DNA from: Phycomyces nitens
Lineage: Eukaryota > Mucoromycota > Mucoromycetes > Mucorales > Phycomycetaceae
NCBI GenBank assembly: GCA_022702545.1
Contig: JAHRBC010000005.1
Location: forward strand, 3,658,001 to 3,722,000
Length of the DNA: 64,000 nt
Direction of reading: 5' to 3'
Under the pieces are notes generated by a model that saw only the letters and a list, made by a program, of their open reading frames with translations, did not search any database and was not told the origin of the DNA. This document shows, piece after piece, positions 22,519-60,643 of this stretch (the first letter of the stretch is position 1; the number at the start of each line of letters is the position of its first letter). A program made the translations under genes and the position numbers.

Positions 22519-22520
22519 TA

Positions 22521-25492: not shown

Positions 25493-26384
25493 TGTTGTAA
25501 AAAGGACAAAAAATACACGATCAAGTGTTGCTTTTGACTGCTTAAATACTCGAAAGCCTTATTTCATCTTTAACAGAAATCATAGACATTTGAGCTGGTC
25601 AGGCTTGGTGAATAAAAACGGTATCGTGAAACGTCTTACAGTACCTAACAAATATAGAATTCCAAGAATAAAAAACCCTTTTTTCTTCCTTTATTTTTTA
25701 TCAAACCCAATATTTAGAGTGCTGGTGGATCAAAAGAAAAATGGGGTTTTTAATAAAAAAAATAACATTATTCTAATAATTGTAACAATTTGAATAAGAG
25801 TAATTAGATAGACTGGTAATAAATAAACATTGCCTTGGTCCAATTGATTTTAGCCCATAGAAAAAATATGGCGGCAAACGATTGTTGTAGAAAACAATCT
25901 TTATAGTTATATATATACATATATAGACATTTTTCTTCACAGATTTTGGTGCTTCTACTTACTCTCCTCATCATGCTATCTCGGTATAATTGTAAGACCT
26001 GAGCCACACAACAATGTATTACACTCTCAAAAAAAGATAAAATGTTTGTACAGTACCTACATCAGGGCCAAGAGTGGCACCATGGATATATCCCGAAAGC
26101 CCATTGGGAAATTGATTTCCTAAATTCTATAGTAGATATCAATAAATATCTCTATGTGATGGTCAATGTATGTATGTTTTCAAGAGAAAATTCCAAAAAA
26201 AAAAAACAATCAGATACAATTTTTAAAACACTCATCCGAATATTCGGGTATTTCAGGTTTCCACAAATCTCACAGAGTTTAAAAATAAACCATTAATGAT
26301 AATACTAAAGAATAGAGGAGTGGATTATAGACATAAAATGAGTACCCCTGAGGAACAAAACTCACAGGGCAGTACCGTAAACCC
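25493..26384. other. Upstream region of kelch copy 1 and spacer
   Basis: Homologous to 42426-42793 up to about 25867 (promoter region with GTTGTAAAAAGGACAAAAAA). Beyond that, single-copy AT-rich DNA with no supported gene. About 65 nt near 25930-26010 recur at 45075-45140. Confidence 0.6.
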
Positions 26385-32500: not shown

Positions 32501-33275
32501 CAGTCAAGATAGTGTCAAATTCGTCGTGAAAAAGGTACTGGGTGTTGAAACGCCAGACCCCAGGTCCAGATGGGCGAGAGAGAGGAATGGAGACAGCGAG
32601 AAGACAGTGGTCAGTCCAAGAAGGATTGATGAAACTGACTTCGGGTGATTCGGTGGGGATGGAGGAAGGGCGGAAGAAGTAGTCGATACATGTACGGGTT
32701 CGGGAACTATGGAAGGTAGGGATAGGGGAAGAGGCGGAATTAGTGATAGCATCGATACAATTACCTTGGAGGTAGCCTTGCCAGTCTGCAGGATGGCTTC
32801 GACGTTGATGGAGATTGCAGTTAAAGTCGCCCAAGACAAAGGCAGGAAGTGAAGGGATGAGGGAAGGGAGAAGGGTGGCAAGAGAAGAAAAGAAAGTGCG
32901 CCGCTGGGCAGGGATATTGGGAGCATAAAGAACAACAACAGCAAAAGGATCAATGCGTTGATCAGTATGTGTAACCTTTACAACTAGTGCACGGTCATCT
33001 GGTGACACGTACAATTGTTCAAGGTGGAGAAGGGGATCGAAAGATATAAGGCCACAGTGCGAAGTCCAAAGACTTGCCTGGGCTTGGAAGAGAAGGTGCA
33101 TTGTGGAATGATGGGAAGGAAGGAGATGGGTCTCTTGTAGAGCAAGTAAGGAAAGTAAGGGAGAGAAGGAGCGGAGGTGACGGATAAAGAGACGTTTGGG
33201 GGATTGCGGATTAGTGATGGTAGATAGGAGACCTCGAGCATTCAAGGTTCCTAAGCGGATAGACTGTACAGTCAT
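29559..33275 (-). CDS. LINE ORF2: endonuclease and reverse transcriptase (1238 aa)
   Basis: Target-primed reverse transcription enzyme. The N-terminal EEP endonuclease spans residues 1-235: LNARG (11-15), QETH with E48, GDFNC (149-153), and TDH (221-223). A linker leads to the RT domain, about 450-760: PGMDGLPYPLW, LRNWRPISL, LLLDQEKAYDRV (581-592), RQGDPLSPLLF and the catalytic YADD at 697-700. The C-terminus has a cysteine/histidine motif (CLVCSTDTEDQDHFLFFC), the zf-RVT type seen in many LINEs. The ATG at 33275 follows the ORF1 stop directly with no spacer (TAAATG), suggesting translation by termination-reinitiation. No frameshift or stop is present over 3.7 kb. GC content is well above the surroundings. 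Confidence 0.95.
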   Translation of the reverse strand: MTVQSIRLGTLNARGLLSTITNPQSPKRLFIRHLRSFSPLLSLLALQETHLLPSHHSTMHLLFQAQASLWTSHCGLISFDPLLHLEQLYVSPDDRALVVKVTHTDQRIDPFAVVVLYAPNIPAQRRTFFSSLATLLPSLIPSLPAFVLGDFNCNLHQRRSHPADWQGYLQGNCIDAITNSASSPIPTFHSSRTRTCIDYFFRPSSIPTESPEVSFINPSWTDHCLLAVSIPLSRPSGPGVWRFNTQYLFHDEFDTILTDLLDKASQSFPKDASPGIRWDCLKQAVKQLSLTYGKKVQRRLRSQERRLHRLRNELSGSSSSPQLSSVESELASIQLTRASTLAARSGAKWCEEGETSSKYFFRVLKQRSAAKSITTLVDPDTSTTFTSPADLLGHTRSFYQSLYSQEAIDLSAAHSLIDHIPPSTSLSSEDSAPLTFKVTLDELKSVLKTTPNNSSPGMDGLPYPLWSRLLAHPTIQSLAVEVYQDALCGVFPPSWLETVLVLLPKAGDLTSLRNWRPISLINCDAKLFTKMLTSRLRCCIGPLITPFQTGFMADRFIADNGLLTRLAMSHAQLTKDPGVGLLLDQEKAYDRVHPTYLRLVMSRLGLPTMFIDSVCALFFSTQIHVNVNGHISSSFEQGRGLRQGDPLSPLLFNIAFEPLLRSLLASPSLCGFRFLVPSHLSSSTPPLSPPPLKLLAYADDLLLFLSSPSEMSTVLSILRTFGLASNAKVNLNKTVAVALSGHFHPDWGPVLDAANITTRHDCHEANAIRYLGFPLSSHPAQLESFRAALLAKLERHCTMLSARGLSVRGKSIVANSLLLSSIWHVLYVTPAPLSFFAAIRKHVRSFLHLGFGSPGWPLLCLPRKSGGLGLLDPDHQQRALQLRWILPILRSRSFSRSSSFLLPYLEFLLPLHFRSPSASIALLFPCSTVSCPSSLLPIHRACSRLLPNALPPTLSVAPLVVLEFPLASVWTFVPPFVSPEMNLKSLLVSDAFLVDDDGRLCPRLRGDRPRARNRIGQFFSKIDAGRMVYCPWFLPCLQLPSPTSPPPPGLSSLLSVVLLDKRPLGKASTGSLRRHLRPSPPPPLLPPVRWRRFWSLVIPHHCRTLWWKVIWKRIPTRLAIHNIMPHTVSDPMCLVCSTDTEDQDHFLFFCPKKRPVWNVVLSRFCRSWTLDDVRQMLTSCQLPSASPTRDTQILLVVITAKAIWNAHWKFVFDNQPFLPGVVATKASSTIERQRAILA

Positions 33276-34613
33276 TTATGAAGATGGTTGGCCAGACTGA
33301 CCAGAGGGAGAGTCAAGTTCTTCCATAGGCGTATTGCCGTCAAGATCAGTGAAGGGCTTATTACCCTGGGCATGTGCCTGGACGGAGAGGTCAAGCAAGG
33401 ACTGGCGGAATTCGTCATCTGTGATGACGGGCCGGGAGACACCGTCCTCAGGAAGGGCAATGCCTCGAGCGGCAAACGAGTACTTGCTGGCAGAAGTACC
33501 TCGACCACTGGGATCATACATTGGGATGTCAATGTCATCACCAATGGGGGCAGGGGATCGATTGGATCCAGCCTTGGACCGAGTGGTCATCACCGACAAG
33601 GATCGGCGACGAATGGGCTTGGGAGCCGGAGAAATGGGAGCAGGAGGTGTAGTGTTCGTCGTCGATCTGACAACAACACTGGGAGGAGATGGGGGAGTGT
33701 TGGTAGCAGCCTGGAGAGCACGGAGAGCTTCTGCTTCAGCAATCTCCAACTGGATTTGCTCTTGCTGAAGACGCTCGGCCTCAATGGTGTCGGGATGGGC
33801 AGGACAGTCTCTGCTGACCATCTCGTGGCCCAAGACACCACAACGCTTACAGCGGGGTGTACGAGAGGGACGCTTCGTACATGCACGCAGGAAGTGACCT
33901 TCCTCACGGCAATACCCGCACACGGGTGGAATATCCTTGGAACGCAGCTCCACTGCGCAGGAAATGGATCCTTCCAAATGAAGACGGCTGGGAAGGGGTT
34001 TGGGTGTGTCTAACCCAGATGTGTCCAGAAGGACGGTAGCTTCACCACGGAAAGTTCCACGGTGGGAGACGTAGGCACGCAATTGGACAACCTTTCCATA
34101 CGACTGGAAAGCCTCTTCGATCGGTGCGAGAAGATCAGTTTTGGGATCGCAGGTACTGATGCGATACATGTTAACCTTCACAATATGACTATTGGAAGGC
34201 AAACTTGGAGAGGCGACGATTCTGGTGCTCTGAAACACCAGGCCGTCGGAGATGGCTTTCACCCGAGTGGCAGGTTCGATGAAAAGGGCCTCTGCCAAAA
34301 GGTCCTTGGAACGAGTGTAACGCAAGGTCAACGAGGTCATCTGGCCAATATTGTCAGAGAGGACATCATCTACTGCGTTGGCAGGAACGAGTTTACCGAG
34401 ATTGAACAAAACGCTCGATGGATGGATGGTGCTGGCCCAAGCAGCAGATGCTGGATTCACGGAGAGACTCTGGTCAAAACCAGGTGCGGTGAAGATATGA
34501 AGAGACTTGTTCTTCGGACGGGATGGTGTGCTCTGTGCACGGATCGCTGGTCGTTGTACCTGCCATGGGTTGACAGTACTGCCCTGTGAGTTCGATCCCT
34601 CAGGGGTACTCAT
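33276..34613 (-). CDS. LINE ORF1: RNA-binding zinc-knuckle protein (445 aa)
   Basis: Nucleic-acid chaperone-like protein of the LINE ribonucleoprotein. The frame is open further upstream to a GTG at 34661, but the first ATG (34613, MSTPEGSNSQ) is taken as the start. From that start, an RRM-like segment (EEAFQSYGKVVQLRAYVSHR) lies at about residues 165-190. Two CCHC knuckles follow at about 232-245 (C-G-Y-C-R-E-E-G-H-F-L-R-A-C) and 255-270 (C-K-R-C...H...C). A glutamine/alanine-rich helical region and a proline/serine-rich low-complexity tail come after. It ends TAA at 33276-33278, overlapping nothing but abutting ORF2. Decayed relatives lie at 26385 and 28236. Confidence 0.92.
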   Translation of the reverse strand: MSTPEGSNSQGSTVNPWQVQRPAIRAQSTPSRPKNKSLHIFTAPGFDQSLSVNPASAAWASTIHPSSVLFNLGKLVPANAVDDVLSDNIGQMTSLTLRYTRSKDLLAEALFIEPATRVKAISDGLVFQSTRIVASPSLPSNSHIVKVNMYRISTCDPKTDLLAPIEEAFQSYGKVVQLRAYVSHRGTFRGEATVLLDTSGLDTPKPLPSRLHLEGSISCAVELRSKDIPPVCGYCREEGHFLRACTKRPSRTPRCKRCGVLGHEMVSRDCPAHPDTIEAERLQQEQIQLEIAEAEALRALQAATNTPPSPPSVVVRSTTNTTPPAPISPAPKPIRRRSLSVMTTRSKAGSNRSPAPIGDDIDIPMYDPSGRGTSASKYSFAARGIALPEDGVSRPVITDDEFRQSLLDLSVQAHAQGNKPFTDLDGNTPMEELDSPSGQSGQPSS

Positions 34614-34691
34614 ACTATTTCTTATTTTGGGGATTTGTGTCGGTAGAATATTTATCCGCACAAAACAATTCTTTAGCTGTGAAACCGTGTG

Positions 34692-34706
34692 TGTCCAAGA
34701 AATAAT
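34692..34706 (+). repeat. LINE target-site duplication, right
   Basis: Exact copy of 29365-29379. It marks the LINE 5' junction and shows that integration was not accompanied by a target deletion. Confidence 0.95.
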
Positions 34707-36467
34707 AACCTACGAAGGAATCCAAATCGACAGCAGTCAACTATTGTACCTTCAAAAGCTGTTTCCCAATGTTCAAAGACTATCTTTAATACTTACAGAA
34801 GACCAGGATACAGCCGTAGATTGGAGTGCGTGGAGAAAGTTAATATTCTTCAAGATTGTATTCAATGGGGACCATAGAGACGCCATAACAAAAATATTTT
34901 CAGAAACATTTTCGCAGCTGCCTTGCCTAAAAGAGGTTACTTCATGTTTTGAAGGCTGGATGACATTATCCATTGGAGATCTCGAAGCTATACACAACGT
35001 GCAATACCTACACACATTGTACCTCAGTCTGGTGGAAGACGGCTTGAATTTACAGGATCTTGCGGATATAGCCAAGGCGGTCCCTGCAAACCATTTGTCC
35101 AAGGTTGAATTGTTCTTGTATATTTCAGATTTGCGATTGATTTACTACTTTACTATAAAGTACCAAAATGTCCGCGAACTGACTTTGCACAATATAAGCA
35201 ACAAAACCGATTTGGTGGACTGTCATCTGGAGGAAGCAAAGTCAAGAATAGCCATGCTTCCTCAAGTATTTTTGAAATTGGAAAAACTCTATATCCGTCA
35301 ATATTATTCAAACGACACGTTTACTCTCGCTTTCTGGGAATGCTTTCCTGATGGCTCATTTTCTATCAAGGAAATAATATATATTTTCACAGCTGTACTA
35401 GGCGAGTTCAACCGAATCCAAGATACAACCAGAGAGCTTATACGTGTGTGTTCCAAAACTATCGAATCAATCACTGCCATCTTCGAAACTCTCGCCTACA
35501 TTCCTAAAACTGAATATTTAACCAGAGGATTCTCTTACTGTCCTCGACTCGTCTACTTAACTTTTTACAGATGTGGAGCTACAATGGAGCTCGATACAAC
35601 GCTGGACTGCTTCCCTTCTTTAAAGGAACTTAGTCTCTTTACCGGAAAACTTTATATAAGTTCAAAAGCAACAAAAGTGGAGGGCCCTCATGGACTACGA
35701 GTAATCAACCTGGGTGATGTCTCGACCGATCCTGATTCATTAAAGTATATTACTACTCGGTGTGAATCTCTTAGTCATATGCGCTTGGAAAGAGTGAATA
35801 TCTTTGGAGATATCTCTCCATCAACAGGATGTTGCTTGATTGACATGTCCAATGCCAGACTGACAGAACTCAAAATCAATTCTCTCCTCTTCCAGCCATC
35901 CTGTCAAGAATGGGAATGCCTGCCTCGTACAAGTATTCATTTTATGAAAATAGTCCGGTTGGATAAATCGCATCCTTGCAATACCGAGGGTAGTAAAATT
36001 AACAAAACATCCATGGATATCAGCAACGATACCATATCAACCTGGCACAATGTATTTGATCGCGGTATTTTTCCAAATACTTTGGATACAGTTATCACGG
36101 AACAAAACAAAGTTAACGCAATTGAAAAATACTTTCAAGACTTTAAAGTTAACCTGGTACGCGACAGAATCCAAGATACTACGATTTATGAAAGAAAACA
36201 AAGACCTGAGAATTGGACGATGAAACTTTGGCAAGGCTACGCATTATTTGTGTGTGGATATACAAAAAACTATAATATTAATTATAAGAATGGCTCAAAA
36301 TACGAAGAAAAGTACAAGTGGTATAATGACAAGAACATTGTACATACTGTTACTGACATATTAGTTGAGCCTATTTTTTATTTTTAATTTTCAATAAAAA
36401 TAAATATTGAAACACAAGTTATTTTTTGAGTTTTTAATATTTTATTATTAAAGTATGTGCAAAGTAT

Positions 36468-36849
36468 CTTTATAACCAACGCAAATAGTTTAAGCAAACC
36501 CTTTATATTTTAACATATACAAGAATAAAGAATATACATACTATACTTTTAAAACAAAGCTAATTAAATCCCTTGACAATACATACTTTTTTTTTCAAAT
36601 AGCTTAAACTCCATATTGCAAAGAAGATTAAAATTAAAAACAGTGACTGAAACCCCCTATTGATGAGTTTATGCAATGTCACCTTTGAAATGAGCAGGTA
36701 AATCGACAGGCCTCTTTGAAAGTATCTGGTGCAACTACTAATCGGACAAGTATATTTTACCAAACCACAGAATCTGTTATTTTCAACAGATTTGCCGAGG
36801 AAAAACCATTTCCACTCTATCAGCCTCCCCAATAACATTTCTAGCCAAT
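36468..36849. other. Insert boundary in duplication copy 2
   Basis: Sequence here has no counterpart in copy 1, where the matching TA is occupied by the Tc1 element. It contains AT-rich DNA and no supported gene. Confidence 0.5.
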
Positions 36850-38061
36850 ATTACTTTCACCGTTGGACAACCTAGTTACAGTCAAGTGGCACGATCCACT
36901 GGAAACAGACAAAACGTTATCTGCACACCAATGCTTATAGGCAGTGTGGACTCCAATTCAACTACTCGAGTGTACGGTCGAGGTACCTCTTATATTTCGG
37001 TGTTTTATCATATTCCTATTGAATTCAACAATCACGATGCATTTGTTGGTCCTCTGAGAAAAGCTTACCCTCAAGATATTGGTCTCCAACTTAAAAATAA
37101 GACAAAAGAATCGTATACTGCGGTTTATCTATGTGTTTCTGGTGCCGACTGTTGTGGACATAAATACAGTAATCCAATTGCTGTTTATAACAATATATTC
37201 TTGGTTACCACTGTTATTTTGGCAGATCTCATACTATTTCGAGTGAACATTACAAAACTTCCAGCAGAAAAAGTATGAAACTATTGTTGTTCAATTGAGA
37301 AAATATCTCGGTATCTTTGGACAATTGTTGCTCGCCTTTTTCATAAACTACAGTTTTTCAAATATCTCCAAAGGGAATATATATATGTCTATTTAGAACA
37401 TCCTATTGTCTCGGACAAGGCTTAGACCCCACTAATTTTCCAAAGCAAATACTCTGCCAACATCCAGATTCGTGGTACCTAGGCGAAAATGGGAAACCAT
37501 TGTGTTTTCTGTAAGCAGATGGGACATTTGGTAGAAAAATACACCGAAAAAAAAGACAAACGTACTTGGCATAATTGTGGGATAATTGGACATATCCATA
37601 TACATTACAACCGTGACCAACTTTCAATCAACCATCAAAAGGTTTATCAAGGTAATGGACCTATCAATCTAAAAGACCTCTATCAAATTCTCACCCCAAA
37701 AAGAATCCAAAAGACGATAGAGGTTGCTTTAAAAGCAACACACCTTCAAAATCAGGCCAACTCCCAAGGACAGCAAAAGGTCTAGGAACAAATGGGTTTG
37801 AGATCACTAAAAGCCCATTCCACAGAAAGGTCACTGCTGATAAGGCTTCTTCTGAATAAAAAAGTATTGACAGATTCCCACCAGAAGAGTATGTGTACTG
37901 CTGACATTACAGCTACCGAAAAGCAAGATGATATCTTCAAAAGTAATATGTCTCCCCCGCCCAAAGGCGAGGTAGAAATGAAAGACCCTGTTGAGGAAAT
38001 GTCAGAGAATAATACACTCTACCAAGAGAGCAATTGCAAATCAACCAAAATTAGAAAATAA
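36850..38061 (+). pseudogene. Divergent retroelement ORF1/gag-like remnant
   Basis: Three frames in succession. The first contains ITFTVGQPSYSQVARSTGNR and a hydrophobic region. The second (37489-37785) contains degenerate knuckles C-V-F-C-K-Q-M-G-H followed by HNCGIIGHIHIH. The third (37792-38061) is charged. The order (basic N-terminus, RNA-binding region, CCHC-like motifs) resembles LINE ORF1 or gag proteins, but key cysteines are lost and frames are broken. No RT is found adjacent. Confidence 0.5.
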
Positions 38062-38225
38062 TTATTAATTCTTGTTTCTCTTGCCTTTAACGCCAAAGCT
38101 ACAATGGGAAAACCCTCATGCCATCACTTGAAAATAATTCGAAAGAACCACACCTCGCCGGGAGTTTTCATAGTTTATTTGTAGAAGCATTATTTACCTT
38201 TATAAGGTCAACCATTCCATAGGAA

Positions 38226-39180
38226 GTAAGTCATCATGAACATCCCTCAATCAACTATTGGAAGCATTATCAAGCTTTGGGAAGAAACTGGTCTAACAGT
38301 GTCAAAGTCTAGTTCAGGAAGGCCTAAAAAACTCAGTCCTACAGATAATATTGCGTTTTGGTTGAGTGTGGCGCCATCCTCTGACAGATATGGATATCAT
38401 CAGTAAAATTTAGTGCTTGCTGGTGTTATTATATATAGAAAGACTGTTAGCAACTATCTTTGGGCAAGTGAACTCGATTTTTATGTACCAGTGTCTAGCC
38501 CAAGTCTTTCACTTGAAGAGAAGAAGAATTGGCTTCGTTGGACAAGAGCCAGGACCAGTTTGACAGTTGAGAACTGTGGAAGGGTTATATGATCAGATGA
38601 GTCTAGGTTCATGGTAAAGGGCAATCATTATGACCCATATGTAATTTATAAACGTGAAAAACGCTTTAAAGGTAGACATTTGTTTCAAATTAAAAAGTTT
38701 GAAAAAGGTTCAGTGATGATGTGGGGGGTGCTTCTGGACTGGAGGACTTGGACCTCCAACTGTGCTCAATGACTCGGTTAATCAAGATTTATATGTCAAC
38801 TGTTTGACCCAGTAATTTAACCCTTGGTATTACACATCGAATTATGGACATGATACCATCTTTAAATTCAAAGAGGATGGCGCCAGTTGCTATACTGGGT
38901 CCTACACGACATGGTAGAAAAATCGATGCCAAATCAAGGGATTTGGCTACTGGCCATCTCAAAGCCATGATTTCAACCTGATTAAGCATATTCTAAAGAA
39001 CGCAAAAGATTGTGTCGCAGAGAAAAACCACAAATCAACAATTCCAAAAATCTCAGGGCTTGTATTGCCAAGGAATTGGAGCAGATAGATCCTGAATTTG
39101 GTGCAAGGCTTGTTGCAAGTATGCCTGATCGAATTTAGACTGTGATTTCTGCTCGTAGTGGAAGCACCCAATATTAAACA
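38226..39180 (+). pseudogene. Second Tc1-like transposase, heavily decayed
   Basis: Fragments in different frames: PQSTIGSIIKLWEETG and SGRPKKLSP (helix-turn-helix region), NWLRWTRARTSLT, SDESRFMVKG (first D), SVMMWG, FKEDGASCYTGS (second D region) and WPSQSHDFNLIKHI (third motif, degraded). Many stops. Different in sequence from the 21176 element. Inverted repeats could not be recognised. Confidence 0.75.
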
Positions 39181-39465
39181 CTAATTATTATTTTTTAATT
39201 CTCAAGCTATATACACTATTGACTATTGGAATATAAAGTCTCAAGACTTTATAATGAGCGAATAACAAGATATTTGTCAAAAAGGATAATGTGTATATTT
39301 TCGTGAAAAAATACTCTAATTTTGTGCCGAATTGCTTTTCTCTGAAAGTGTAGTCTCCAGAAACAAGTTCAAATAACAGAAAAACATATACCAAAGCTAA
39401 CGTGCTATTTAGACCAAGAAAATTAAACAAAGTTGATTCTTGTTGGAATTGTGATTATTATTGTA
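39181..39465. other. Spacer downstream of kelch copy 2
   Basis: AT-rich DNA between the decayed transposase and the kelch stop codon; no gene is supported. The last few bases (TTGTATTATGG) match the right flank of the Tc1 in copy 1. Confidence 0.5.
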
Positions 39466-42425
39466 TTATGGTAGCTCCTCTATGTTTTTACTCGCAGAAT
39501 ATCTTTTTTTGTGATGGTCAATAGCCACACTAAGCTCCCTAAAAACTTCATCATCAACATAATAAGCTTCCAATAAACGTTCTGTCAACTGCACTCGCCG
39601 CTCCATTAAGCACATTCGATTCCGTAGATACTTTAGCTCTTCTCCTTGCGGGTCTTCTAATAATGTGATATTGCTTTCGTCGATTTGGCTATTGTATTGC
39701 TTTTTGTCAAAGTTGTTATTAACAAGACTAACAAAAGGAACAGGTGTATCCAAGCTGTCAAACTTTTTCTGAAGACCTCTTCCAAGAGATCTTTTCATGA
39801 ATCCACAGGAAAAGTGTTGAACTATACCCCAAGGAGATTTTGGGCGGAAACCAAATAGCCATGCTTGTATGCCAAGTATGAGACTGAGGATACCTCCAAC
39901 GGAACCAAGCGAATTAAGAATCGAGTGAATCTTTTGATCTTGTTGCACAACAGTAGCGTATTCACTTGGGTACAAATCAATGGTGCCAAACATTCCTTCA
40001 TTGGAATAAAACATCTTGTTCCTATAGACATTAAAGTCGCCTACAAAGATAGAAGAGCTGATTTCTGGTGTATGATTATAACGAGCCAAGAGACCTAGTT
40101 GGTTCCATCCGGTTTCTTCGAGATATTGGTGGTCTTGGACTTGGTACTGCATTGTCAGAGAGTCGTTTGTATAGATTATAAATGTATTTGGATCACTTTT
40201 TCCTTGCATATCACGCACACCCCATTCATCAATGGCTTGCTCGGACATGACCTGTGGTACATCGGTTGTGTTGATTTTATAGATCTTTACATTAGGATCC
40301 ATTCCAGGCGGGTATTGAGTGATTCGAACTGTTCCAGCAACACTCATATTACCAGAGAATTTAATATGAAGCTTGGTTCCATTTCGGTTTCCTTCATCTC
40401 CATCTCCCAGGCGGAACCAGCTGGGCGGAGCGAATAGATGACATTCTGAGGCTGCGACAGAATCACTGAATACAGGAGTATGTACTTGCATGTCAAGTTT
40501 TGTCAGAAACTCATCACAAGAGATTTCTCGATCAGAGCTGCAGTATGATTGTGTGTAACTAGTATCAGGATATGATCTATAGAGATCATCAGGCTTAATC
40601 CATCCCTCAAAACAAATTCTTATATCTATACAAATCCAAATCAATAAGCTATATTTACATTCAATTTTTGTAATACCTGGTATTGCGACAGATGAAGCCT
40701 TTGTGCTAATGATAATGCTTGTCGTTGGACTGTTGATAACTTGTCGAATAGAGAATACCAAATATAGAATAAACAGAAAGGCGAGAATACATTGTACCAA
40801 GAGACGAAATAGTTCTGTCCACATCGGCTCTCCACGTCTATAAATCCTTGTATTGATAACTAGCCTCACAATTTGTTATATTTTAATGCGTACCTTGGGT
40901 TCCAGATAATCCATCGTAATAAACATGGCAAGTAGTATATGTCTTTGTAGGTTTTCCAGGCGCAGAATCCCAAAATAAGCGCAAGTAGTATGCTACCAAT
41001 AATTATCCCTGCCAGAGTTCCCTTGTCCATCTTGTTGTAAATGGTTACCGAGTGGTCTGAGTCCGGCAAGTCCGCTGGACTATTAACCCACGAATACTTG
41101 GGATCGCCTTGACCATCAATAGCAAGGATATTTATATAATTATAAGGCTTTTCAAATAGAGACTCTGTAAAATTAATTGTGGCTTAGTATCAAACTAAAC
41201 ATTTGGATTCAAATAATATACCTGATAAGATTAGAATCGTATTCTCAGTGAGATATCCCATGGTGAATGTATAGCGAGCAGTAGGATAATCACCCAAAAT
41301 TTTTTGGCCTTGACCATACCCATGTATCCGTATTTAATAAAAGGACATCGTTAAGATGCGAGATGTCTATATTAGATCCTAAAATATAACATTAACTATC
41401 AATATATCAAAAACCTTTTAATTATTCAGCCCTTACCACCATACAAGATAATCGTCTTTTTATCTGGACCTATAAGCATAAACATTTGAGTATTTTTCTG
41501 GAATGGCCTAAAATTATATCAATAAATACCTAGCAATGTACCGGGATCAGTCCTGCCTTCCAATGACTCACCCGTCGCATTTATGTGTATCCATTTGTCT
41601 GTGTTTGTGTCATAGATATCGATTTCATTGAGGCTTGGCATATACATCCTGTCAGTTTTGTTTTTTGAAACATTTCCGCCAATATATACAATCTGTCCAT
41701 TACTGCAGAACCGTAATTAATTGTCAGTCATCATTTCTTGTTTTCTGTTTTTTTTTCTGGAATACTTACGGAAGTACTGTGGCACTGTGTGAATTTCGAT
41801 ACAACTGATTAGGCTGAGTGAGGCTTGTATACTCAAAGGTAATTGGATCAAATGACCACAGTTCGTTAAACGAGTAGGGGGACTCTGCCTCTGCTCCACC
41901 GTATATATACACTTTGCCATTAGGAGCTAATGAGAGCTGAAAACCCATGCGTATCAGTGGCCCAGTAGCATTGTTGATTGCAAAAATCTCTTTCCAAAAC
42001 GGAGTAGAACTTTGAAAATCGTAGGTATATGTGCGAATAATGGTCCCACTATTTTGATTTGCCAGGTCAGACCCAGTAACAAGAAGTGCGGTGTGGCCAT
42101 CCTGAAGCATAACAATCTTGGAAACGACACACAGTGGACCAGGAAGATACTGAGGAACTGTTTCGTACAAGACCTCTCCTTTGGAATCGGGATCAGTTGA
42201 TAAGGATACGGAAGAGAAATTGGATGTGGCATATTCTAACTTAAAGGTCCCCCCGTAAGTATATAATTTGTTATTATGGGAAAATATGGTCGACTGATAA
42301 CTAGGATACATGTCATCTAGGCCCTTTGAAGGACCAGCATATATTCCGGATACAACATTTATAGCATAAAAGTACAATATAATGGAAATTGATAAAAAGT
42401 AAAAAGATTTATAAAGATAGATCAT
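39466..42425 (-). pseudogene. Kelch membrane protein gene, copy 2, with a +1 frameshift
   Basis: Paralogue of 22521-25492 with the same exon plan: 42425-41770, 41702-41530, 41469-41437 (33 nt), 41378-41222, 41164-40894, 40837-39466. Exon lengths equal copy 1 (656, 173, 33, 1372), with two exceptions. Exon 5 is 9 nt shorter because one LPD repeat is missing. Exon 4 is 157 instead of 156 nt because a T run near 41300-41306 has six instead of five T. That single base shifts the frame in the last kelch blades and would remove all three membrane helices. Everything downstream is otherwise open, so a sequencing error in the homopolymer or a very recent loss are both possible. Confidence 0.75.
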
Positions 42426-42793
42426 TGTTGTAAAAAGGACAAAAAATACACGATCAAGTGTTGCTTTTGACTGCTTAAATACTCGAAAGCCTTATTTCAT
42501 CTTTAACAGAAATCATAGACATTTGAGCTGGTCAGGCTTGGTAAATAAAAATGGTATCGTGAAACGTCTTACAGTCCCTGATAAATATAAAGTTCCGGGA
42601 ATAAATAGACCCTTTTTTTCCCTTTTTTACTAAACTTAATATTTAGAGTGCTGGTGGATCAAAAGAAAAATGGGATTTTTAATAAAAATAACATTATTTT
42701 AATATTTGTAACGGTTTGAATAAGAGTAATTGGATAGACTGGTAATAAATAATCATCACCTTGGTCTAATTGCTTTTAGCCCATAGAAAAAAA

Positions 42794-48339: not shown

Positions 48340-48700
48340 CTTAGGGGCACAATGTTTCTCAGGACACGACGTTTTAAGCTGGTACGACGTTGCTTGATGA
48401 GGTCTAGCATTTTTAGATGTCATAGTGTCTGGACATTGTTGTAGAATTTTATATCACAATATACACTTAGACGGTACCAAAACACATTGAAGATGTAAGC
48501 AACATTTTATATATCACTAGCAATATATGTCAAAATTGTTTTTAAAGCATGTCATCCATAGAAAAAATGTTAAAGTCTTAGAGACATATATTTGTTAGAC
48601 ACCAGACAGCAATTAACATTCAAATGTTGGGTGTATATCAAAACCTCGTGCGACATCCAGAAACGTCGTGCCACTAACATTGGCGTTATTCAAGGCCATA
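48340..48700. repeat. Repeat R1, partial copy
   Basis: Matches the right halves of the copies at 44750-45090 and 63450-63850 (TTTTTAGATGTCATAGTGTC, TTTAAAGCATGTCAT, AAACGTCGTGCC). Its ends (TTAGGGGCAC at 48348 and its approximate complement at 48675) are inverted, suggesting a MITE of about 330 bp nested in or derived from the larger repeat. Confidence 0.75.
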
Positions 48701-48824
48701 AAATATTTAATCTATCTCCATACCAACACTCAATCAATACTGGGTGTGCCAAAACATTAGAGTTCTTTTGGCTTGATTTAAACTGAATAAAGACTACCAT
48801 ACAAACGAACACCAAAGCTACTAT

Positions 48825-51800
48825 ATAATCTGAAAAAAATTGTTAGTGGTGCAAATCAGTTTGAATAAGATAGACTTGCCTTATATATGTGGGACTGCTC
48901 CAATAAAACAAAACTTGGATAGTATACAAAATGAAACCAATGTTAGCAATGCAGGCAAGTTTGCTTTGAACACACTTACATTTCTATTCTAGTCAGACAC
49001 ACTCTTAATAGTATTCAAATTTCTATTTCTAATCTACTTTCCACCTACCTTGGAGCCCGCCACCATCCCCGATTCTTCCCAACCGGAACAAAGCTATACT
49101 AAACTGAAGTCCAAGTTAGCAGTGTGTCCTCGATCGCATTCAATTTACTTACCTGCTAATCTACTCGGACGTCTAAATTACGGGACAGGCTACGCTACCA
49201 TATAGAGTGGAGGCATTGTTAGCAGGGCTGTCCAGTTTGATTGGGATAGACTTACCTTTCTACTCTACTCGGACGGCTACTCTAAACGATATCTAAACTA
49301 CAATTTCTAATCTACTTTCCACCTACCTTGGAGCCCACCACCATCCCCGATTCTTCCCAACCGGAACAAAGCTATACTAAACTGAAGTCCAAGTTAGCAG
49401 TGTGTCCTCGATCGCATTCAATTTACTTACCTGCTAATCTACTCGGACGTCTAAACTACGGGACAGGCTACGCTACCATATAGAGTGGAGTCATTGTTAG
49501 CAGTGATGTCAAGTTTGATTGGGATAGATTTACCTACTAATCTACTCGGACAGCTAAACTACTCGGACGGCTATGCTACTATATATAGTGGAGTCATTGT
49601 TAATAGTGCTTGTCAAGTTTGATTGGGATAGACTTACCTTTCTACTCTACTCGGACGGCTACTCTAAACAATATCTAAACTACAATTTCTAATCTACTTT
49701 CCACCTACCTTGGAGCCCACCACCATCCCCGATTCTTCCCAACCGGAACAAAGCTACACTAAACTGAAGTCCAAGTTAGCAGTGTGTCCTCGATCGCATT
49801 CAATTTACTTACCTGCTAATCTACTCGGACATCTAAACTACGGGACAGGCTACGCTACTATATAGAGTGGAGTCATTGTTAACAGGGCTGTCAAGGTTGA
49901 TTGGGATAGATTTACCTACTAATCTACTCGGACAGCTAAACTACGGGACAGGCTACGCTACCATATAGAGTGGAGGCATTGTTAGCAGTGATGTCAAGTT
50001 TGATTGGGATAGACTTACCTGCTAATCTACTCGGACAGCTAAACTACTAGGACGGCTAAACTACGGGACAGGCTACGCTACTATATAGAGTGGAGTCATT
50101 GTTAACAGGGCTGTCAAGTGTGATTGGGATAGACTTACCTTTCTACTCTACTCGGACGGCTACTCTAAACAATATCTAAACTCCATTTTGTAATCTACTT
50201 CCACCTACCTTGGAGCCCACCACCATCCCCGATTCTTCCCAACCGGAACAAAGCTACACTAAACTGAAATCCTAGTTAGCAGTGTGTTCTTGATCGTATT
50301 CAATTTACTTACCTGCTAATCTACTCGGACATCTAAACTACGGGACAGGCTACGCTACTATATAGAGTGGAGTCATTGTTAACAGGGCTGTCAAGGTTGA
50401 TTGGGATAGACTTACCTTTCTACTCTACTCGGACGGCTACTCTAAACGATATCTAAACTACAATTTCTAATCTACTTCCACCTACCTTGGAGCCCACCAC
50501 CATCCCCGATTCTTCCCAACCGGAACAAAGCTACACTAAACTGAAGTCCAAGTTAGCAGTGTGTCCTCGATCGCATTCAATTTACTTACCTGCTAAACTA
50601 CTCGGACGGCTAAACTACGGGACGGTCTATGCTACTATATAGAGTGGAATCATTGTTAGCAGTGCCGTCAAGGTTGATTGGGATAGACTCACCTTTTTAC
50701 TCTACTCGGACGGCTACTCTAAACAATATCTAAACTACATTTTCTAATCTACTTCCACCTACCTTGAAGCCCACCACCATCCCCGATTCTTCCCAACCGG
50801 AACAAAGCTATACTAAACTGAGATCCAAGTTAGCAGTGTGTCTTTGATCGCATTCAATTTACTTACCTGCTAAACTACTCGGACGGCTAAACTACGGGAC
50901 AGGCTACGCTACTATATAGAGTGGAATCATTGTTAGCAGTGCCGTCAAGGTTGATTGGGATAGACTCACCTTTTTACTCTACTCGGACGGCTACTCTAAA
51001 CAATATCTAAACTACAATTTCTAATCTACTTTCCACCTACCTTGGAGCCCACCACCATCCCCGATTCTTCCCAACCGGAACAAAGCTATACTAAACTGAA
51101 GTCCAAGTTAGCAGTGTGTCCTCGATCGCATTCAATTTACTTACCTGCTAATCTACTCGGACGTCTAAACTACGGGACAGGCTACGCTACCATATAGAGT
51201 GGAGTCATTGTTAGCAGTGATGTCAAGTTTGATTGGGATAGATTTACCTACTAATCTACTCGGACAGCTAAACTACTCGGACGGCTATGCTACTATATAG
51301 AGTGGAGTCATTGTTAACAGGGCTGTCCAGTTTGATTGGGATAGACTTACCTTTCTACTCTACTCGGACGGCTACTCTAAACGATATCTAAACTACAATT
51401 TCTAATCTACTTTCCACCTACCTTGGAGCCCACCACCATCCCCGATTCTTCCCAACCGGAACAAAGCTATACTAAACTGAGATCCAAGTTAGCAGTGTGT
51501 CTTTGATCGCATTCAATTTACTTACCTGCTAAACTACTCGGACGGCTAAACTACGGGACAGGCTACGCTACTATATAGAGTGGAATCATTGTTAGCAGTG
51601 CCGTCAAGGTTGATTGGGATAGACTCACCTTTTTACTCTACTCGGACGGCTACTCTAAACAATATCTAAACTACAATTTCTAATCTACTTTCCACCTACC
51701 TTGGAGCCCACCACCATCCCCGATTCTTCCCAACCGGAACAAAGCTATACTAAACTGAAGTCCAAGTTAGCAGTGTGTCCTCGATCGCATTCAATTTACT

Positions 51801-53240
51801 TACCTGCTAATCTACTCGGACGTCTAAACTACGGGACAGGCTACGCTACCATATAGAGTGGAGGCATTGTTAGCAGTGATGTCAAGTTTGATTGGGATAG
51901 ATTTACCTACTAATCTACTCGGACAGCTAAACTACTCGGACGGCTATGCTACTATATAGAGTGGAGTCATTGTTAATAGTGCTTGTCAAGTTTGATTGGG
52001 ATAGACTTACCTTTCTAGTCTACTCGGACGGCTACTCTAAACAATATCTAAACTACATTTTCTAATCTACTTCCACCTACCTTGGAGCCCACCACCATCC
52101 CCAATTCTTCCCAACCGAAACAAAGCTACACTAAACTGAAGTCCAAGTTAGCAGTGTGTCCTCGATCGCATTCAATTTACTTACCTGCTAAACTACTCGG
52201 ACGGCTAAACTACGGGACGGTCTATGCTACTATATAGAGTGGAATCATTGTTAGCAGTGCCGTCAAGGTTGATTGGGATAGACTCACCTTTTTACTCTAC
52301 TCGGACGGCTACTCTAAACAATATCTAAACTACATTTTCTAATCTACTTCCACCTACCTTGAAGCCCACCACCATCCCCGATTCTTCCCAACCGGAACAA
52401 AGCTATACTAAACTGAAGTCCAAGTTAGCAGTGTGTCCTCGATCGCATTCAATTTACTTACCTGCTAATCTACTCGGACAGCTAAACTACTCGGACGGCT
52501 AAACTACGGGACAGGCTACGCTACTATATAGAGTGGGGTCATTGTTAACAGGGCTGTCAAGTGTGATTGGGATAGACTTACCTTTCTACTCTACTCGGAC
52601 GGCTACTCTAAACAATATCTAAACTCCATTTTGTAATCTACTTCCACCTACCTTGGAGCCCACCATCATCCCCGATTCTTCCCAACCGGAACAAAGCTAC
52701 ACTAAACTGAAATCCTAGTTAGCAGTGTGTTCTTGATCGCATTCAATTTACTTACCTGCTAATCTACTCGGACATCTAAACTACGGGACAGGCTACGCTA
52801 CTATATAGAGTGGAGTCATTGTTAACAGGGCTGTCAAGGTTGATTGGGATAGACTTACCTTTCTACTCTACTCGGACGGCTACTCTAAACGATATCTAAA
52901 CTACAATTTCTAATCTACTTCCACCTACCTTGGAGCCCACCACCATCCCCGATTCTTCCCAACCGGAACAAAGCTATACTAAACTGAAATCCTAGTTAGC
53001 AGTGTGTTCTTGATCGCATTCAATTTACTTACCTGCTAATCTACTCGGACGTCTAAACTACGGGACAGGCTACGCTATTATATAGAGTGGAGGCATTGTT
53101 AGCAGTGCTGTCAAGGTTGATTGGGATAGACTTACCTTTCTACTCTACTCGGACGGCTACTCTAAACAATATCTACACTTCAATTTTTAATCTACTTTCC
53201 ACCCACCTTGGAGCCCACCACCATCCCCGTCTTTCCAACC
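48825..53240 (-). repeat. Tandem array of intron-like modules (14 core units, 277/278-bp basic period)
   Basis: The landmark CACCATCCCC (one variant) falls at 49061, 49339, 49721, 50221, 50498, 50775, 51053, 51434, 51712, 52093, 52370, 52664, 52941 and 53219. Intervals are 277-278, 381-382, 500 or 294, meaning a 277/278-bp unit plus zero, one or two extra ~105-bp sub-blocks. Read on the minus strand, each unit has AG|GTAAGTAAATTG...TGCTAAC...CTTCAG (49 nt), AAAG|GTAAGTCTATCCC...TGCTAAC...CTATATAG (58 nt) and a third donor, AAG|GTAGGTGG. A 55-nt block between intron-like segments is open as FSIALFRLGRIGDGGGLQ, but the other blocks contain stops, so no continuous protein results. Diverged units mark the left edge (48830-49020). 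Confidence 0.9.
48830..48879 (-). other. Diverged edge module with GC-AG borders
   Basis: On the minus strand: AAG|GCAAGTCTATC... CACTAAC ...TTTTTTTCAG, 50 nt. It is homologous to the GTAAGTCTATCCC module of the array core, with a GC donor and a better polypyrimidine acceptor. It shows the array extends, decayed, beyond the clean units. Confidence 0.55.
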
Positions 53241-53530
53241 AAAGTGATCAACTGACTAGGACTGGAAATGCCGCTGAAAACTGGCAATGGATCTAAAACT
53301 AAAAAAATAAAACGGCTTAATAGCATCACATTCATACTTAGCTGCAACCCTCCACCAACCCCGTCTTGAACCATCCTGATCGTCTGCCTGGCCTGGACAT
53401 GCGGACGAAGACTGACCGCTAAACCTACAAATGTACACAAGAAAAATATTAGTTTTAACATACATGTATTTTTGTCGATGTCTACCACCATCCTGAAAAC
53501 TTACACCACGTCATCTCTACTGACAGGCTA
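53241..53530 (-). other. Right-edge exon-like segment of the array
   Basis: On the minus strand, GTAAGT near 53502, an ACTAAT branch-like motif and TTTGTAG near 53426 delimit a possible 80-nt intron. The following block encodes QDGVGGGLQ, similar in DNA and protein to the array's GRIGDGGGLQ block. It therefore looks like the diverged first module. A signal-peptide-like MLKLIFFLCTFVG here is mostly intron sequence if splicing occurs as proposed. Confidence 0.45.
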
Positions 53531-53829
53531 ACATCTTGATCCTCAGAAATGAATCGGCTTCTTTATATTGGACGCTTGTCCTCAAAAGTCGCGACCATTT
53601 TATGATGAAATCCGGCGGCTTGAGGAGATGATATTGGTTTTCAGGTTTTGTCACCGGATCACTAGTGGTTGAACAACTGTTCAGCATCTTTAATATATAT
53701 ATATATATATCAAAGAGTCTGAAGTCATATTGATAAACTCTAGCGCTGTGGTATCAATCATTCTGGACTTGCATGTTGGCACCATAACAAGTTGCGGCTG
53801 AAAAACATTTCAGACTCTTCATAGCAGGT

Positions 53830-54235
53830 TTTTTTCCCTGAAAGAGTCAGAAAAGGGTTTCATCAAGGATAGCCGCCGTTGTTGCCTTGGTATGGAAAGA
53901 CTAGCAATTTAAAAAAGGGTCTGTGCCCTTTAGTGGAATTTCACCCGCTAAAGAGTTGCAACTATCTTTCATCAAGCTGACCTTTCCGAAGTCAAGACTG
54001 TCGTGTTTCCATGCTAGGTGCAGGGGAATGGCCATCGAAAACGGTCTTCATCAAGGCTGATAGCTGCTGTCAAAAGTTTACCAACGTCTTATTGATGCCA
54101 GATAACGAGCTATCGAAAAAAGGCTCTGGGGTCTTAAAGTGGACTTTTGCCCATATAAGAGTCAGAACTATCTTTCATCAAGCCCAGCTGTCTGATATCA
54201 AGACTTTGACATACTCATGTTGGAGTCAGTGAGCC
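53830..54235. repeat. Degenerate ~200-bp tandem duplication
   Basis: Segments such as CAACTATCTTTCATCAAGC (about 53959) and GAACTATCTTTCATCAAGC (about 54165) recur about 200 bp apart, with further weaker TTCATCAAGG copies at about 53854 and 54047. It lies between the intron-like array and the small gene at 54277. Confidence 0.6.
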
Positions 54236-54276
54236 ACCGGTATAAAGAGCATTTGGCTTTTTTGCAATGAAGGTTT

Positions 54277-54612
54277 TTATTGAAAAGGAATGGAATCACT
54301 TTTCATCTTGACTTGAAATCTAATGGCATTGGCTTGCCATTCCCATCTTGACATGGCCTTGAAAAATGTTTCAATTTTTTGAAATGCTCCTTGTGGAATG
54401 ACAATAGGTGGATGGCTGTTGAGCACAAAGCGGACCTTCGGAACATGATAAGACCATTTGGGCTTGCTCAGACAGTGGCAGATGTAAAGTGGACCCATGT
54501 ACTTGACTTTCTGATTAATAGGCGCGTGTACAGACAAGATACAAGTAAAAAAAATGTGAATTTTTGTGGCAAAAACACAAGGATACAAAGGTGAAAAACA
54601 TCCATCCATCAT
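54277..54612 (-). CDS. Hypothetical small protein (111 aa, or a spliced form)
   Basis: Not recognised. The C-terminal two thirds read like real protein: VKYMGPLYICHCLSKPKWSY, VRFVLNSHPPIVIPQGAFQK, SRWEWQANAIRFQVKMKS. An AATAAA signal lies directly after the stop. The unspliced start is ATG at 54612. Alternatively, a leader ending GGATCCAG at about 54696 is spliced via GTAAGT to an acceptor TTAATCAG just before KVKYMGPL (intron about 195 nt), with translation from the ATG of MGPLY or upstream. The same leader/donor arrangement is present in the LTR element near 17560. It is the only plausible coding unit beside the array. Confidence 0.4.
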   Translation of the reverse strand: MMDGCFSPLYPCVFATKIHIFFTCILSVHAPINQKVKYMGPLYICHCLSKPKWSYHVPKVRFVLNSHPPIVIPQGAFQKIETFFKAMSRWEWQANAIRFQVKMKSDSIPFQ

Positions 54613-55075
54613 CAATAACGCGTCTTTATGGTTATAAAGGGCGTGTAGTATGAAATGGAAGATGGATGAAGAGGAGATGGAAAGATATTTGTACTTACCT
54701 GGATCCAAATATTGGTTTGCGGCGATGAAATGGAAAGAGAGAGGGAAAGGGAAAAAAACAAATCCTCGCCCCCAGTGCGCTAAGATATAGAAAAAAATTC
54801 ATGTGATGAAGTCATCAAAGTGTGGGAATGTATTGCTCCTCCATATATGGAAGCGCATATTTGTATGTAAATAAGTTTGACTGAACTAATGTTAAGACTA
54901 CTTCTTTTTCAATAGAAACAAGTAAACAAGTAAAGAACTTTTAAATCGTATTGTATCAGTTTGAAAAGTGGTGTTCATCGGTGTAGGAATATCTTTAAAG
55001 ACAGTGGTACTTCTTTGAACGGCGATTAGTTTCTGTACGCTACTCTGAAATGGCCCGTGCGCTTTTTATTCAGGA
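54613..55075 (-). promoter_or_regulatory. Upstream region conserved with the LTR-element passenger
   Basis: Shared with about 17440-17900: ACATCCATCCATCATC, ATTTG..CTTACCT, AGTGTGGGAAT, and ATCTTTAAAGACAGTG followed by ACTTCTTTGAACGGCGATT. Conserved order over about 450 bp suggests a common promoter and first exon. Strand is inferred from the donor direction. Confidence 0.6.
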
Positions 55076-55490
55076 ATAAAATGTCTTCAAAATTACATAA
55101 AGCAAGACGCACAATATTTACGTCAGAGTTATTACTACAATATATATATATATATTTTAGTAAAAGTTATATACAAGCTTTAGAGATTTCATGTCAAATG
55201 GTCTTGACATGCCAATTCAATGCATCTTGTCATTGCCATGATGTGCTAATCAAATGTCGAAATCATAGTCAAAGAACTTTTGTCCTTTTTTGTAGCATCT
55301 TGGCCATGATAACCTTTACAAACATAATAATATTAGCATTGTCATTGAACAACATGTATAGCGGATGACTATAGAATGTCCTAGACAAATATTTATAACT
55401 GATGTTCTTTGTTAATTGAAAGTACAGGTGATATATGATGTTTGATATATATATGCTGCTTTTGTATTATCACAGTGAGATATATGGATG
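55076..55490. other. AT-rich region, no gene supported
   Basis: A 103-codon open frame (55057-55368) has no domain and its composition follows the AT-rich DNA. TA runs lie at 55141-55155. Confidence 0.5.
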
Positions 55491-55861
55491 TGTTAGCATC
55501 TTTTAAATAAAAAATAATATGAACCCAACATTTGCTGTATAACTGATACTTCGGCTCTTATAAAACGACGCTTCAATTAAGATGCTCTATGTGGTATACA
55601 CACCACAGTTGAGTGAAATACAGACTCCACAACCGATCTCCGGTTATTACTTGCTAATGAACCTGGCAAGTCAACATCTCAGGAACAGTTACACACCAGG
55701 CACACGTACACTTCACACTGCTACAGTGATAACCAACCATTACACGACGGGGACTTTAATTACAAGGGAATATGAATAATAGTATATAAGCAATCATAAT
55801 ATTCTTTCTTCAATAAATAACACTATCACAGTATTATTATTTCCCTCACAATATACTAACA
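55491..55861 (+). repeat. Candidate solo LTR (copia-like ends)
   Basis: It begins TGTTAG and ends CTAACA (inverted termini), is 371 bp long, and has AGTATATAAGC at about 55781 followed by CAATAAATAAC about 30 nt later, the usual promoter then polyadenylation order. No target duplication is visible (GGATG on the left, AACCA on the right), and no second copy is in the window. Confidence 0.4.
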
Positions 55862-56417
55862 AACCAATATACCTTTGCTATCTCATATTGAATTAATGTC
55901 TCGATTTAATTATATAGACTAAACAATATGAATTTTATGATTATATATTCATAGATTCAATTCTTATATGCATTAGAAATAAGATTAATGTAAATGCATG
56001 ACTTTTATTTACATCTTAGAACAGATCTTACGATTGCTCAATGTTTTTTCTGGTAACTATGTAGTTATTTAGCCAAGAGACAAATATTGCCAAATCCAAA
56101 AGAATTGATCCGCAAACAATGCCTGAATGTTTTTGTGTTTTTAGAAGCATGATCCGTGTACGTATATTGATGTTCTTGTATGATATTTTGGTGGTTATAC
56201 ATGATAGACTTAATATATATTTTGTATCTCTTGTCCTAACAAAGTCGCCTACTTTCATACAATCAAGTCTTGACAGGTTTACATATATTTATTGGATTGA
56301 TAAGATAATTTAGGTAACAAATTGGCAAAAAAAAACGTAATAGAGTGTGTATATAATGCCACTGCTAAAAGCAGCAAGGCTTATACATGCTCTTGTGCTG
56401 ACGTACTGGAGTTCAGA
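55862..56417. other. Intergenic region 3' of the F-box gene
   Basis: AT-rich, with short open frames on both strands and no supported gene. Confidence 0.5.
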
Positions 56418-58721: not shown

Positions 58722-60643
58722 ATGACCAACTTGAAATTACAAACACTTTATAGAACTTGCTTCATTATGAGCCCTACCAATAAAGAAACTATTTTTATCG
58801 ATGGAAAAAAATACTATCCTGTTCAACAAACCCTTCCAACCCCACCTTCTAATGGCTACCACGACATGACGATGGCAATTGGAAATATACAAGAGTATGA
58901 CCCTTGCCAATAACTTTGTTCTTGCAGTCAAAGATTGTAAACCAACCCGAGTTTACTTGAAGTGCACCAAGGGTGGACAATATAAGAACACCCGTGTAAT
59001 CAAAGACAAAGACAGAATAAGGATTTCATCGAGTGGAATGACTGGCTGCCCTTACATTTAAAGATTTCCTACAAGAAGGGCATCAAAGGGTATCTTCCTT
59101 TGAAAGCCACTCATAATATTGAGGCATATCACAATCATCTTCTTGACGATGAGTGTCTAGAATCGATACTGAAAGGTAAATTGTCAAAGGTGACTGTAGA
59201 CGGTCCCAGGGAGATTATTAGACTTGTTGAGGGTAAAGCCAAGACCCGTGATATTCAGAAACCAATCAACGATGATGAACAGTTCGGTCACAAGTTGTAT
59301 GTTAGTGATATCAACAATATCAAGGCTGCGTTCGCTCGTGCAACTGCTTCTGGCATACAGGACACAAGCACCAAGCTCATCAACGATATGGAAGCAAAAG
59401 GGTATCAAGCGCGATACAATATCAACGATAATGGATCGCTTGAACAAATCATGTTCAGTCATCCAAAGATGTTGGAAAGAGCCCGTCGCTTCCCAGAAGT
59501 TATGGTAGTGGATGCGACCTATTCTACCAACAATCTGGAGATGCCTCTCATCTGTGTAGAAGGTGCGCGCAACCTTGGAGGAGAAACACTTAAGTCGTTT
59601 CCAATTGCCTTTGCCTGGGTATCCAACGAGCAACAAGGCAGCTACCTTTGGTTTCTGGAGCAGTTGAAAAGGCTCGTTTTCAGAGACATGCCATCCAACA
59701 CCTTGTTTGTGACAGACAAATGTGCTGCATTAATGAGTGCCCTTGACATTGTCTTCCCAGATAATGGCAAACTCTTGTGCTACTGGCATATGCTGAATAG
59801 TGTTGAGAAAGTCTTTTCTGGAAAACTAAAGTCTGTGGCTGAGAAGGAGGTGCTGATGGAGTATGTCAGTCGTATGATTCACAGTACGGATAAGGAGGAG
59901 TTTGATGTGGCCCTCACAAAGTTCAATGCTGTTTCTGCCGGTTTGGATGTAGAGGATGGAAAAGAGAAGGTTCACGCTTCTGTGTATTTTACCAGTAGAT
60001 AGGTCAAGTGCCGAGAGAAGTGAGCAGGATATTTGACATGCAAGCAAATGCATTTTGGGTGTACAGCAACCCAAAGAGTTGAAAGCGCCCACCAAGCTTT
60101 GAAAAGAGGAATCTCGGCCATCTCTTCTTTGGGGCTAGCTTTTGATGCTGTAGCCACATATGTCAACAGGCTCGAAAGAGATTTTGGGGCCATCAAGATC
60201 AGAGAATCGAACACTGTCAACATGTTGGTTGGTCGGAACAAGCTGCTTGAAAACCTATTCAAGAAGGTCTCCAAGCGAGCCTTGTTGTTGATCCGGAGCT
60301 TCATTTGAAAGGCGGCAATGACCAAAATTGTCTTTGCAAATGCAGATTGGAATATGGCTTGCAGTGTCACCATACATTGCCCAATGGAAGGAGCATCGAG
60401 CTTACGGACATTCCAGCAAGGTGGATTATCGAACCTGTTGAAAGAGAAGGTCCGGGAAACATCATCCCAACAAACTCAATGTTTTCTGAAGAGCCAGAGG
60501 AGTGGATAAACGAAATTATCAGGATAGAAACCCTCTTTCGCTCTTGTGATGGCAGCCAACAAGTTTCCAGCCTTATCAAGATCCTAAGTGAAGCTACAGC
60601 CGGGTTTGATAGTAAAACTGGCCATCCTGCTATAAGACTTTAG
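58722..60643 (+). pseudogene. MULE-family transposase, decayed
   Basis: Mutator-like DDE transposase in broken frames: 58722-58913, a shift to 58879-59061, a shift to 59100-60002, two stops, 60033-60308, and a shift to 60305-60643. Recognisable parts in order are the N-terminal DNA-binding finger (ending THNIEAYHNH), VMVVDATYSTNNLEMPLICV (first D), LFVTDKCAALMSAL (second D) with the C..H/WHM motif LLCYWHMLNSV, RVESAHQALKRGI (E), and the SWIM finger (CLCKCRLEYGLQCHH). All catalytic residues are kept, but at least three shifts and two stops kill it. Some frame changes might be introns. I saw clear GT-AG borders only downstream. Confidence 0.85.

Follow-up and report, generated by a model that had tools for sequence, protein, structure and literature searches.

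A tandem array of intron-like modules on the minus strand of a dispersed repeat family in Phycomyces nitens

Why should a tandem repeat carry ordered splice signals? This question is raised by a minus-strand array in the fungus Phycomyces nitens, whose genome (GenBank assembly GCA_022702545.1) comprises 49 Mb in 11 contigs; the locus labels C1 to C10 used below name contigs. The array occupies positions 48941-53240 of a 64,000-nucleotide stretch of contig JAHRBC010000005.1 (C7:3658001-3722000), which is referred to here as the window and to which unprefixed coordinates belong. Its repeat period is 277/381 bp. The explanation favored here, with a probability of roughly 55%, is that the array is the exon-intron module of a non-coding minus-strand unit, that this module was tandemly amplified by unequal exchange, and that the transcript is probably spliced. 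From the sequence we infer that the unit has a promoter and is transcribed and spliced, and that splicing may be what has kept the signals in place.

Cutting the array at its donors divides it (48980..53135, minus strand) into 13 A modules of ~174 nt and 18 B modules of 103-120 nt. An A module consists of a 49-nt candidate intron (GTAAGT…TGCTAAC…TTCAG) and a 124-126-nt candidate exon that contains the block GGTTGGGAAGAATCGGGGATGGTGGTGGGCTCCAAG. A B module consists of a 58-61-nt candidate intron (GTAAGT…TG[CT]TAAC…TAG) and a 42-62-nt candidate exon. The latter contains 17-bp sub-repeats, which account at least partly for the richness of the exons in TAG. When the minus strand alone was scanned from 53135 to 48830 for a looser pattern (donor, YTAAC branch site and AG acceptor), 33 candidate introns were found: 13 of 49 nt ending in CAG, 18 of 58-61 nt ending in TAG, and two at the 3' edge, named T1 (66 nt) and T2 (50 nt). 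The window copy therefore holds 33 candidate introns per ~4.3 kb, or one per 130 bases. The initial annotation, made from the sequence of the window, had recognized a minus-strand tandem array of intron-like modules and counted more than 25 candidate introns, which was an undercount. It had also assigned GTAAGT and TGCTAAC to every unit. This holds for all 13 A modules and not for the B modules, in which each exact motif occurs in 10 of 18 (donors GTAAGT 10, GTGAGT 4, GTAAAT 4; branch sites TGCTAAC 10, TGTTAAC 6, TATTAAC 2).

A stricter pattern, GTAAGT...YTAAC...AG, was scanned on both strands and gives 23 matches on the minus strand of the array and none on the plus strand. In 200 dinucleotide shuffles the mean was 0.43 and the maximum 3, and the remaining 59 kb of the window contain one match on each strand. 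The intron lengths that had been called typical of this window are plausible; however, the strict consensus is rare in its remainder. Each row of array sequence from the fetched loci has its splice signals on a single strand. Donor, branch site and acceptor stand in order at short fungal lengths, as in spliceosomal introns, with the host consensus resting on single candidates. The initial annotation had also asked whether unrelated satellites carry the same motifs, and in the one other satellite array that was read fully they are absent. This satellite has a 264-bp unit in 10.2 copies (L029:1843-4530, or C1:690943-693630), follows a copy of the long terminal repeat (LTR) that also borders the present family, and is found at many loci. 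In its ten units, on both strands, GTRAGT, GTAAAT and CTAAC do not occur; the nearest GTAAGT is 130 bases upstream of the array, and the antisense strand holds 31 loose YTRAY words. The 264-bp satellite has a 68-bp motif, 85% alike, in common with 54969-55036 of the window.

The array belongs to a dispersed family, as a genome search with the array unit revealed: a 383-base array query matches 11 loci. A 1.25-kb query from the leader upstream of the array gives at least 22 matches of at least 936 bases at 88-100% identity, the window included; 40 of 72 candidates were scored, so that 22 is a lower bound, and a 68%-identity match of 954 bases was left out. The array, LTR, leader and 264-bp-satellite searches all scored only their best candidates, and the family counts are therefore lower bounds. 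Fifteen of the 22 leader matches were fetched, and the remaining seven have no module match in the array-query search. Among the fetched copies 10 carry A or B modules, one (C1:6732k) carries remnants and four carry none. Module counts range from 1-3 of a type (C5, C6, C1:6415k and C4) up to 25 A modules (C10) and 35 B modules (C7b). A modules are 93.9% identical within a locus and 88.9% between loci; the corresponding values for B modules are 89.8% and 86.6%. Both the varying module number and the higher identity within loci favor the suggestion, already made in the initial annotation, that an exon-intron module was amplified by unequal crossing-over. The loci are not independent samples, as several lie in duplicated flanks (C10/C9/C6; C1a/C1b, downstream; C7a/C7b/C1b, upstream; C1u/C5; C4u/C10v). 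The module-less copy C10u (C10:2041k; L024:2751-3202) contains three 129-bp tandem repeats that include the G-rich exon motif and stay in frame over 116 aa; they are a separate amplification of a neighboring segment.

The signals are largely retained across this family. Module rows were kept at 150 or more aligned columns for A (104 of 133) and 95 or more for B (157 of 375); the dropped B rows include many short, partial hits on A modules as well as shortened B modules. By a rule that allows common variants, all three signals are present in 92/104 A and 137/157 B modules, and in 13/13 and 18/18 of those in the window. Exact GTAAGT occurs in 97 of 104 A donors. At the B branch site most variants read TGTTAAC, TACTAAC or TATTAAC, all with YTAAC kept, and much of the branch variation is C or T at one position. 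Locus-weighted identity in B modules is 0.970 at the donor and 0.934 at the branch site, as compared with 0.890 for other intron bases (p=0.019). Ranked by retention among 97 five-base words of the B modules, the branch word TAACA is first and the donor word TAAGT fourth. In T1 and T2, compared over seven loci with C1b excluded as a near-repeat of C1a, no variation is seen in 20 of 24 motif columns, as against 79 of 127 others (p=0.035). The T1 donor of C5s is shifted by 4 nt in the alignment yet still reads GTAAGT. Since the permutation assumes that columns can be exchanged freely and takes no account of common descent, all of these p-values are guides only.

The array sits within a larger minus-strand unit that begins at about 55876. 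Its 5' end is a 287-bp solo-LTR-like segment (55590..55876), which is present in high copy in the genome. Other copies of this LTR have the termini TG...CA, and in the window copy AA replaces TG. A perfect 5-bp target-site duplication was found at two of the six LTR copies inspected away from the usual position (AAGAC, CTTTT). The TG end borders eight distinct flanks among the loci shown, and this shared edge suggests that the copies were dispersed via LTR-anchored recombination or duplication. The core, or leader (53311..55486), is common to 15/15 fetched copies, with mean conservation of 0.87-0.99 per 40-nt block and values of 0.82-0.84 in the weakest blocks (54477-54556). At 55486 the sequence of C5s and C1u changes to an inverted LTR copy that abuts the core; in most other copies homology runs on upstream into the solo LTR.

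The best conserved stretch of the core (54590..54756; 0.97-0.99) contains a pyrimidine-rich run and a candidate non-coding exon 1, and a promoter or exon role may be ascribed to this stretch. Candidate exon 1 ends in CAG at 54699 and is followed at 54698 by the donor GTAAGTA of candidate intron 1 (53425..54698; 1274 nt), which ends in ACTAA, pyrimidines and a GTAG acceptor in 14 of 15 copies, this end being lost in C4s. Among the pieces folded, the leader piece at 54600-54740 alone surpasses its shuffles (z -2.24, 3 of 200). In the same minus-strand piece, which is ~99% conserved, ATATTTG and CAAATAT flank the donor and could pair as judged by eye; the predicted fold is without that hairpin. 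A sequence akin to the G-rich exon motif but older, GACGGGGTTGGTGGAGGGTTGCAG, lies in the pre-array segment (53136..53424) of the copies. On the other side of the array, candidate intron T1 (48914..48979), the first of the two diverged 3'-edge introns, has GTAAGT and TGCTAAC. Candidate intron T2 (48830..48879) is of the GC-AG type, with GCAAGT after AAG, CACTAAC and TTTCAG; across eight aligned loci AAG with GCAAGT is found in 8/8, CTAAC in 8/8 and AG in 7/8. It is followed by a candidate 3' exon (48685..48829), and around 48685-48714 the homology among loci either fades or gives way to other sequence.

The main rival to a spliced unit is a fossil satellite, in which the signals arose in a dead or never-spliced unit and were then carried along by tandem amplification and homogenization. 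This is a possibility of some weight, if on balance an unlikely one. Homogenization of an array can keep motifs alike without selection, and a number of observations weigh against splicing as their keeper. In A modules the locus-weighted identities of donor (0.928), branch site (0.906) and acceptor (0.937) do not significantly exceed that of other intron bases (0.882; p=0.17), and the exon block stands at 0.930. The comparison of splice motifs with neighboring bases that the initial annotation proposed thus came out in favor of the B modules and the 3' edge and not of the A modules. Among 169 A words ranked by retention, TAAGT is 22nd, CTAAC 40th and TTCAG 46th, while the top-retained words are mostly within the G-rich exon-like block, whose conservation might reflect a G-quadruplex or protein site. 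Exact CTAAC ranks 31/97 in B modules, and TGCTAAC 19/95. Decay of signals is seen in C7b (C7:4272-4280k), where 8/35 B branch sites read CTAAA and 4/23 A donors GTAACT, and in C1b, where 4/32 B donors read GTAATT. Among the matches listed, the CTAAA branch site in eight B modules is confined to C7b, and it offers a possible natural loss-of-function contrast. T1 is without a conserved close acceptor, the AAG of the window copy not being common to the other loci aligned. The four module-less copies indicate that the leader does not require modules, and the persistence of such copies favors a fossil, as does the presence of another satellite without splice signals at many loci of this genome. Furthermore, GTAAGT...CTAAC...CAG is matched 484 times genome-wide, as compared with 540 times for a reversed control, and therefore this pattern by itself proves no intron. 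Within the fetched family loci there are 77 such matches, all on the sense strand; the two numbers come from different counters, and their ratio of ~1 in 6 is approximate. What speaks against a fossil is that most A and B modules retain all three signals, that the motifs of the B modules and the 3' edge are conserved beyond their surroundings, and that the signals lie on a single strand.

Other explanations start from particular parts of the unit. The array may be internal to a non-autonomous LTR retrotransposon that moved as a unit, as the homology edge at the solo-LTR TG in eight flanking contexts would fit, together with the 264-bp satellite that also follows a copy of the LTR and has the 68-bp motif in common with the core. 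We consider this improbable: the fetched stretches downstream contain no direct second LTR save 69-71% matches ~1.6 kb past C1a and C1b, no TGG primer-site start follows the LTR within 20 bases in the window copy or in L029, a sharp common 3' end is missing, and several copies lie within duplicated flanks. Membership among LTR elements was rejected on the two-LTR and primer-site features. Introner-like elements are introns that have colonized unrelated genes; they had been proposed in the initial annotation and would account for many near-identical introns. However, the genome-wide matches to the intron bodies with no more than 3 mismatches, 86 for B and 90 for A, all lie inside the 10 module-bearing loci, with 0/86 and 0/90 outside the family and none for the reversed patterns. 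Introner-like spread is therefore not supported, and of all the explanations it is the hardest to credit. A repeat gene that codes for protein once its exons are joined by splicing is also very improbable, even with one 55-nt block open and the three C10u repeats in frame. The modeled spliced RNA (candidate introns and intron 1 removed) is 2997 nt long and contains 257 TAG and no frame above 96 aa. Keeping intron 1 extends the longest frame to 159 aa; both of these frames are upstream of the array, and the frames of the array itself are closed after intron removal. Copies of the pre-array segment differ by frame-shifting indels, the three-base periodicity of the core is not above the 95% null, and two family open reading frames (ORFs) have no homologue at E up to 0.1. 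The coding reading was rejected on its closed array frames, periodicity and lack of homologues at this threshold. A structured or known RNA was rejected as well: no Rfam family reaches the gathering score in the window, and 48600-55500 gives nothing at E up to 1 beyond a sub-threshold plus-strand miRNA match. The exon and intron pieces fold about as well as shuffles do on average (z -0.77 to +1.33), and neither of the two intron consensus sequences does better than shuffled sequence.

A spliced non-coding RNA fits both the closed array frames and the mostly kept signals. The unit is probably transcribed by RNA polymerase II. In order, it would consist of the solo LTR with a conserved promoter-like leader (~55.9-53.3 kb), the array, the two older 3'-edge introns and the 3' exon, and the array portion would supply tens of 49- and 58-61-nt introns between ~45- and 126-nt UAG-rich exons with the G-rich motif. 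The primary transcript would most likely be spliced many times to yield a non-coding RNA of ~3 kb. Unequal exchange would copy the module in tandem, by which the module number comes to vary among loci. If transcribed, the RNA of the array would be extremely rich in tiny introns. If it is also spliced, the family provides a natural experiment on how many introns a single transcript tolerates, on the load placed on splicing factors and on the birth of a satellite from gene parts, and the range of module numbers within a single genome, from one or two per copy to more than 30, makes a built-in dose series.

Several other features were observed around the array. Two very similar sets of ORFs occupy 19167-25558 and 34501-42491 (F-box-like and kelch-like by eye, with a 469-aa ORF without Pfam match). 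Between the two sets there is a LINE-type reverse transcriptase ORF of 1238 aa (29559-33275, minus strand; RVT_1, endonuclease and zf-RVT) and an ORF at 33276-34709 with zinc-knuckle-like motifs by eye. A Tc3-type HTH transposase fragment is found at 21239-21898 and an ORF with a MULE transposase domain at 58986-60002. For an RSC9-like protein in the window, Apophysomyces and Spinellus supply the best relatives, at 71-72% identity. On contig C1 an intron-like sequence, GTAAGTATAAGAATG...TTTTAG, recurs near-identically at 20 listed places, some of them opposite-oriented and a few kb apart; it is possibly the intron of a transposon.

No description of an exon-intron satellite in a fungus was found among the titles and abstract openings returned for the search terms used. 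Four known systems can be compared with the array. Satellites that derive from tandem arrays inside LTR retrotransposons (PMC7004042) likewise involve a dispersed LTR-associated unit with an array that is longer in some copies, whereas the present unit has a single LTR, no primer-site start was seen in it, and it bears splice signals. Fungal introner-like elements (PMC4457414) likewise provide many near-identical short introns in one genome; the introns of the array stand in tandem within one family and not in unrelated genes. In the non-coding RNA Gomafu/MIAT, tandem UACUAAC repeats bind SF1 (PMC3116199). Since a non-coding RNA rich in branch motifs can bind SF1, a role of the present array as a possible splicing-factor sink is conceivable. 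Array loci would then take up early splicing factors through more than 30 strong U1 and SF1/U2 sites per transcript, and the family would tune splicing capacity or feed stalled-spliceosome-dependent RNA silencing, with array length as the dosage dial; this proposal is speculative and we regard it as improbable. The title of the Gomafu paper refers to a noncoding exon (PMC3116199), in contrast to the array, where the motifs are in candidate introns. In the present spliced model the branch motifs leave with the introns, unlike in a Gomafu-type decoy: no CTAAC is left in the modeled spliced RNA, and an unspliced RNA would keep the motifs.

Tandem exon-intron units are also found among host genes of small nucleolar RNAs (snoRNAs), and rat Bsr is presumably one such non-coding host gene. 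In the SNORD116 and SNORD115 host genes, non-coding exons and introns likewise follow head to tail in one transcription unit (PMC4742849). The introns of snoRNA host genes hold box C/D snoRNAs, whereas those of the array are 49-61 nt long and contain no Rfam family at gathering score, and hence no snoRNA per intron at that score. The array further differs in being fungal and dispersed over many loci. In the arrangement of its signals and in its closed frames it matches the tandem non-coding exon-intron organization of the SNORD116 type, with candidate exons and candidate introns in the corresponding roles.

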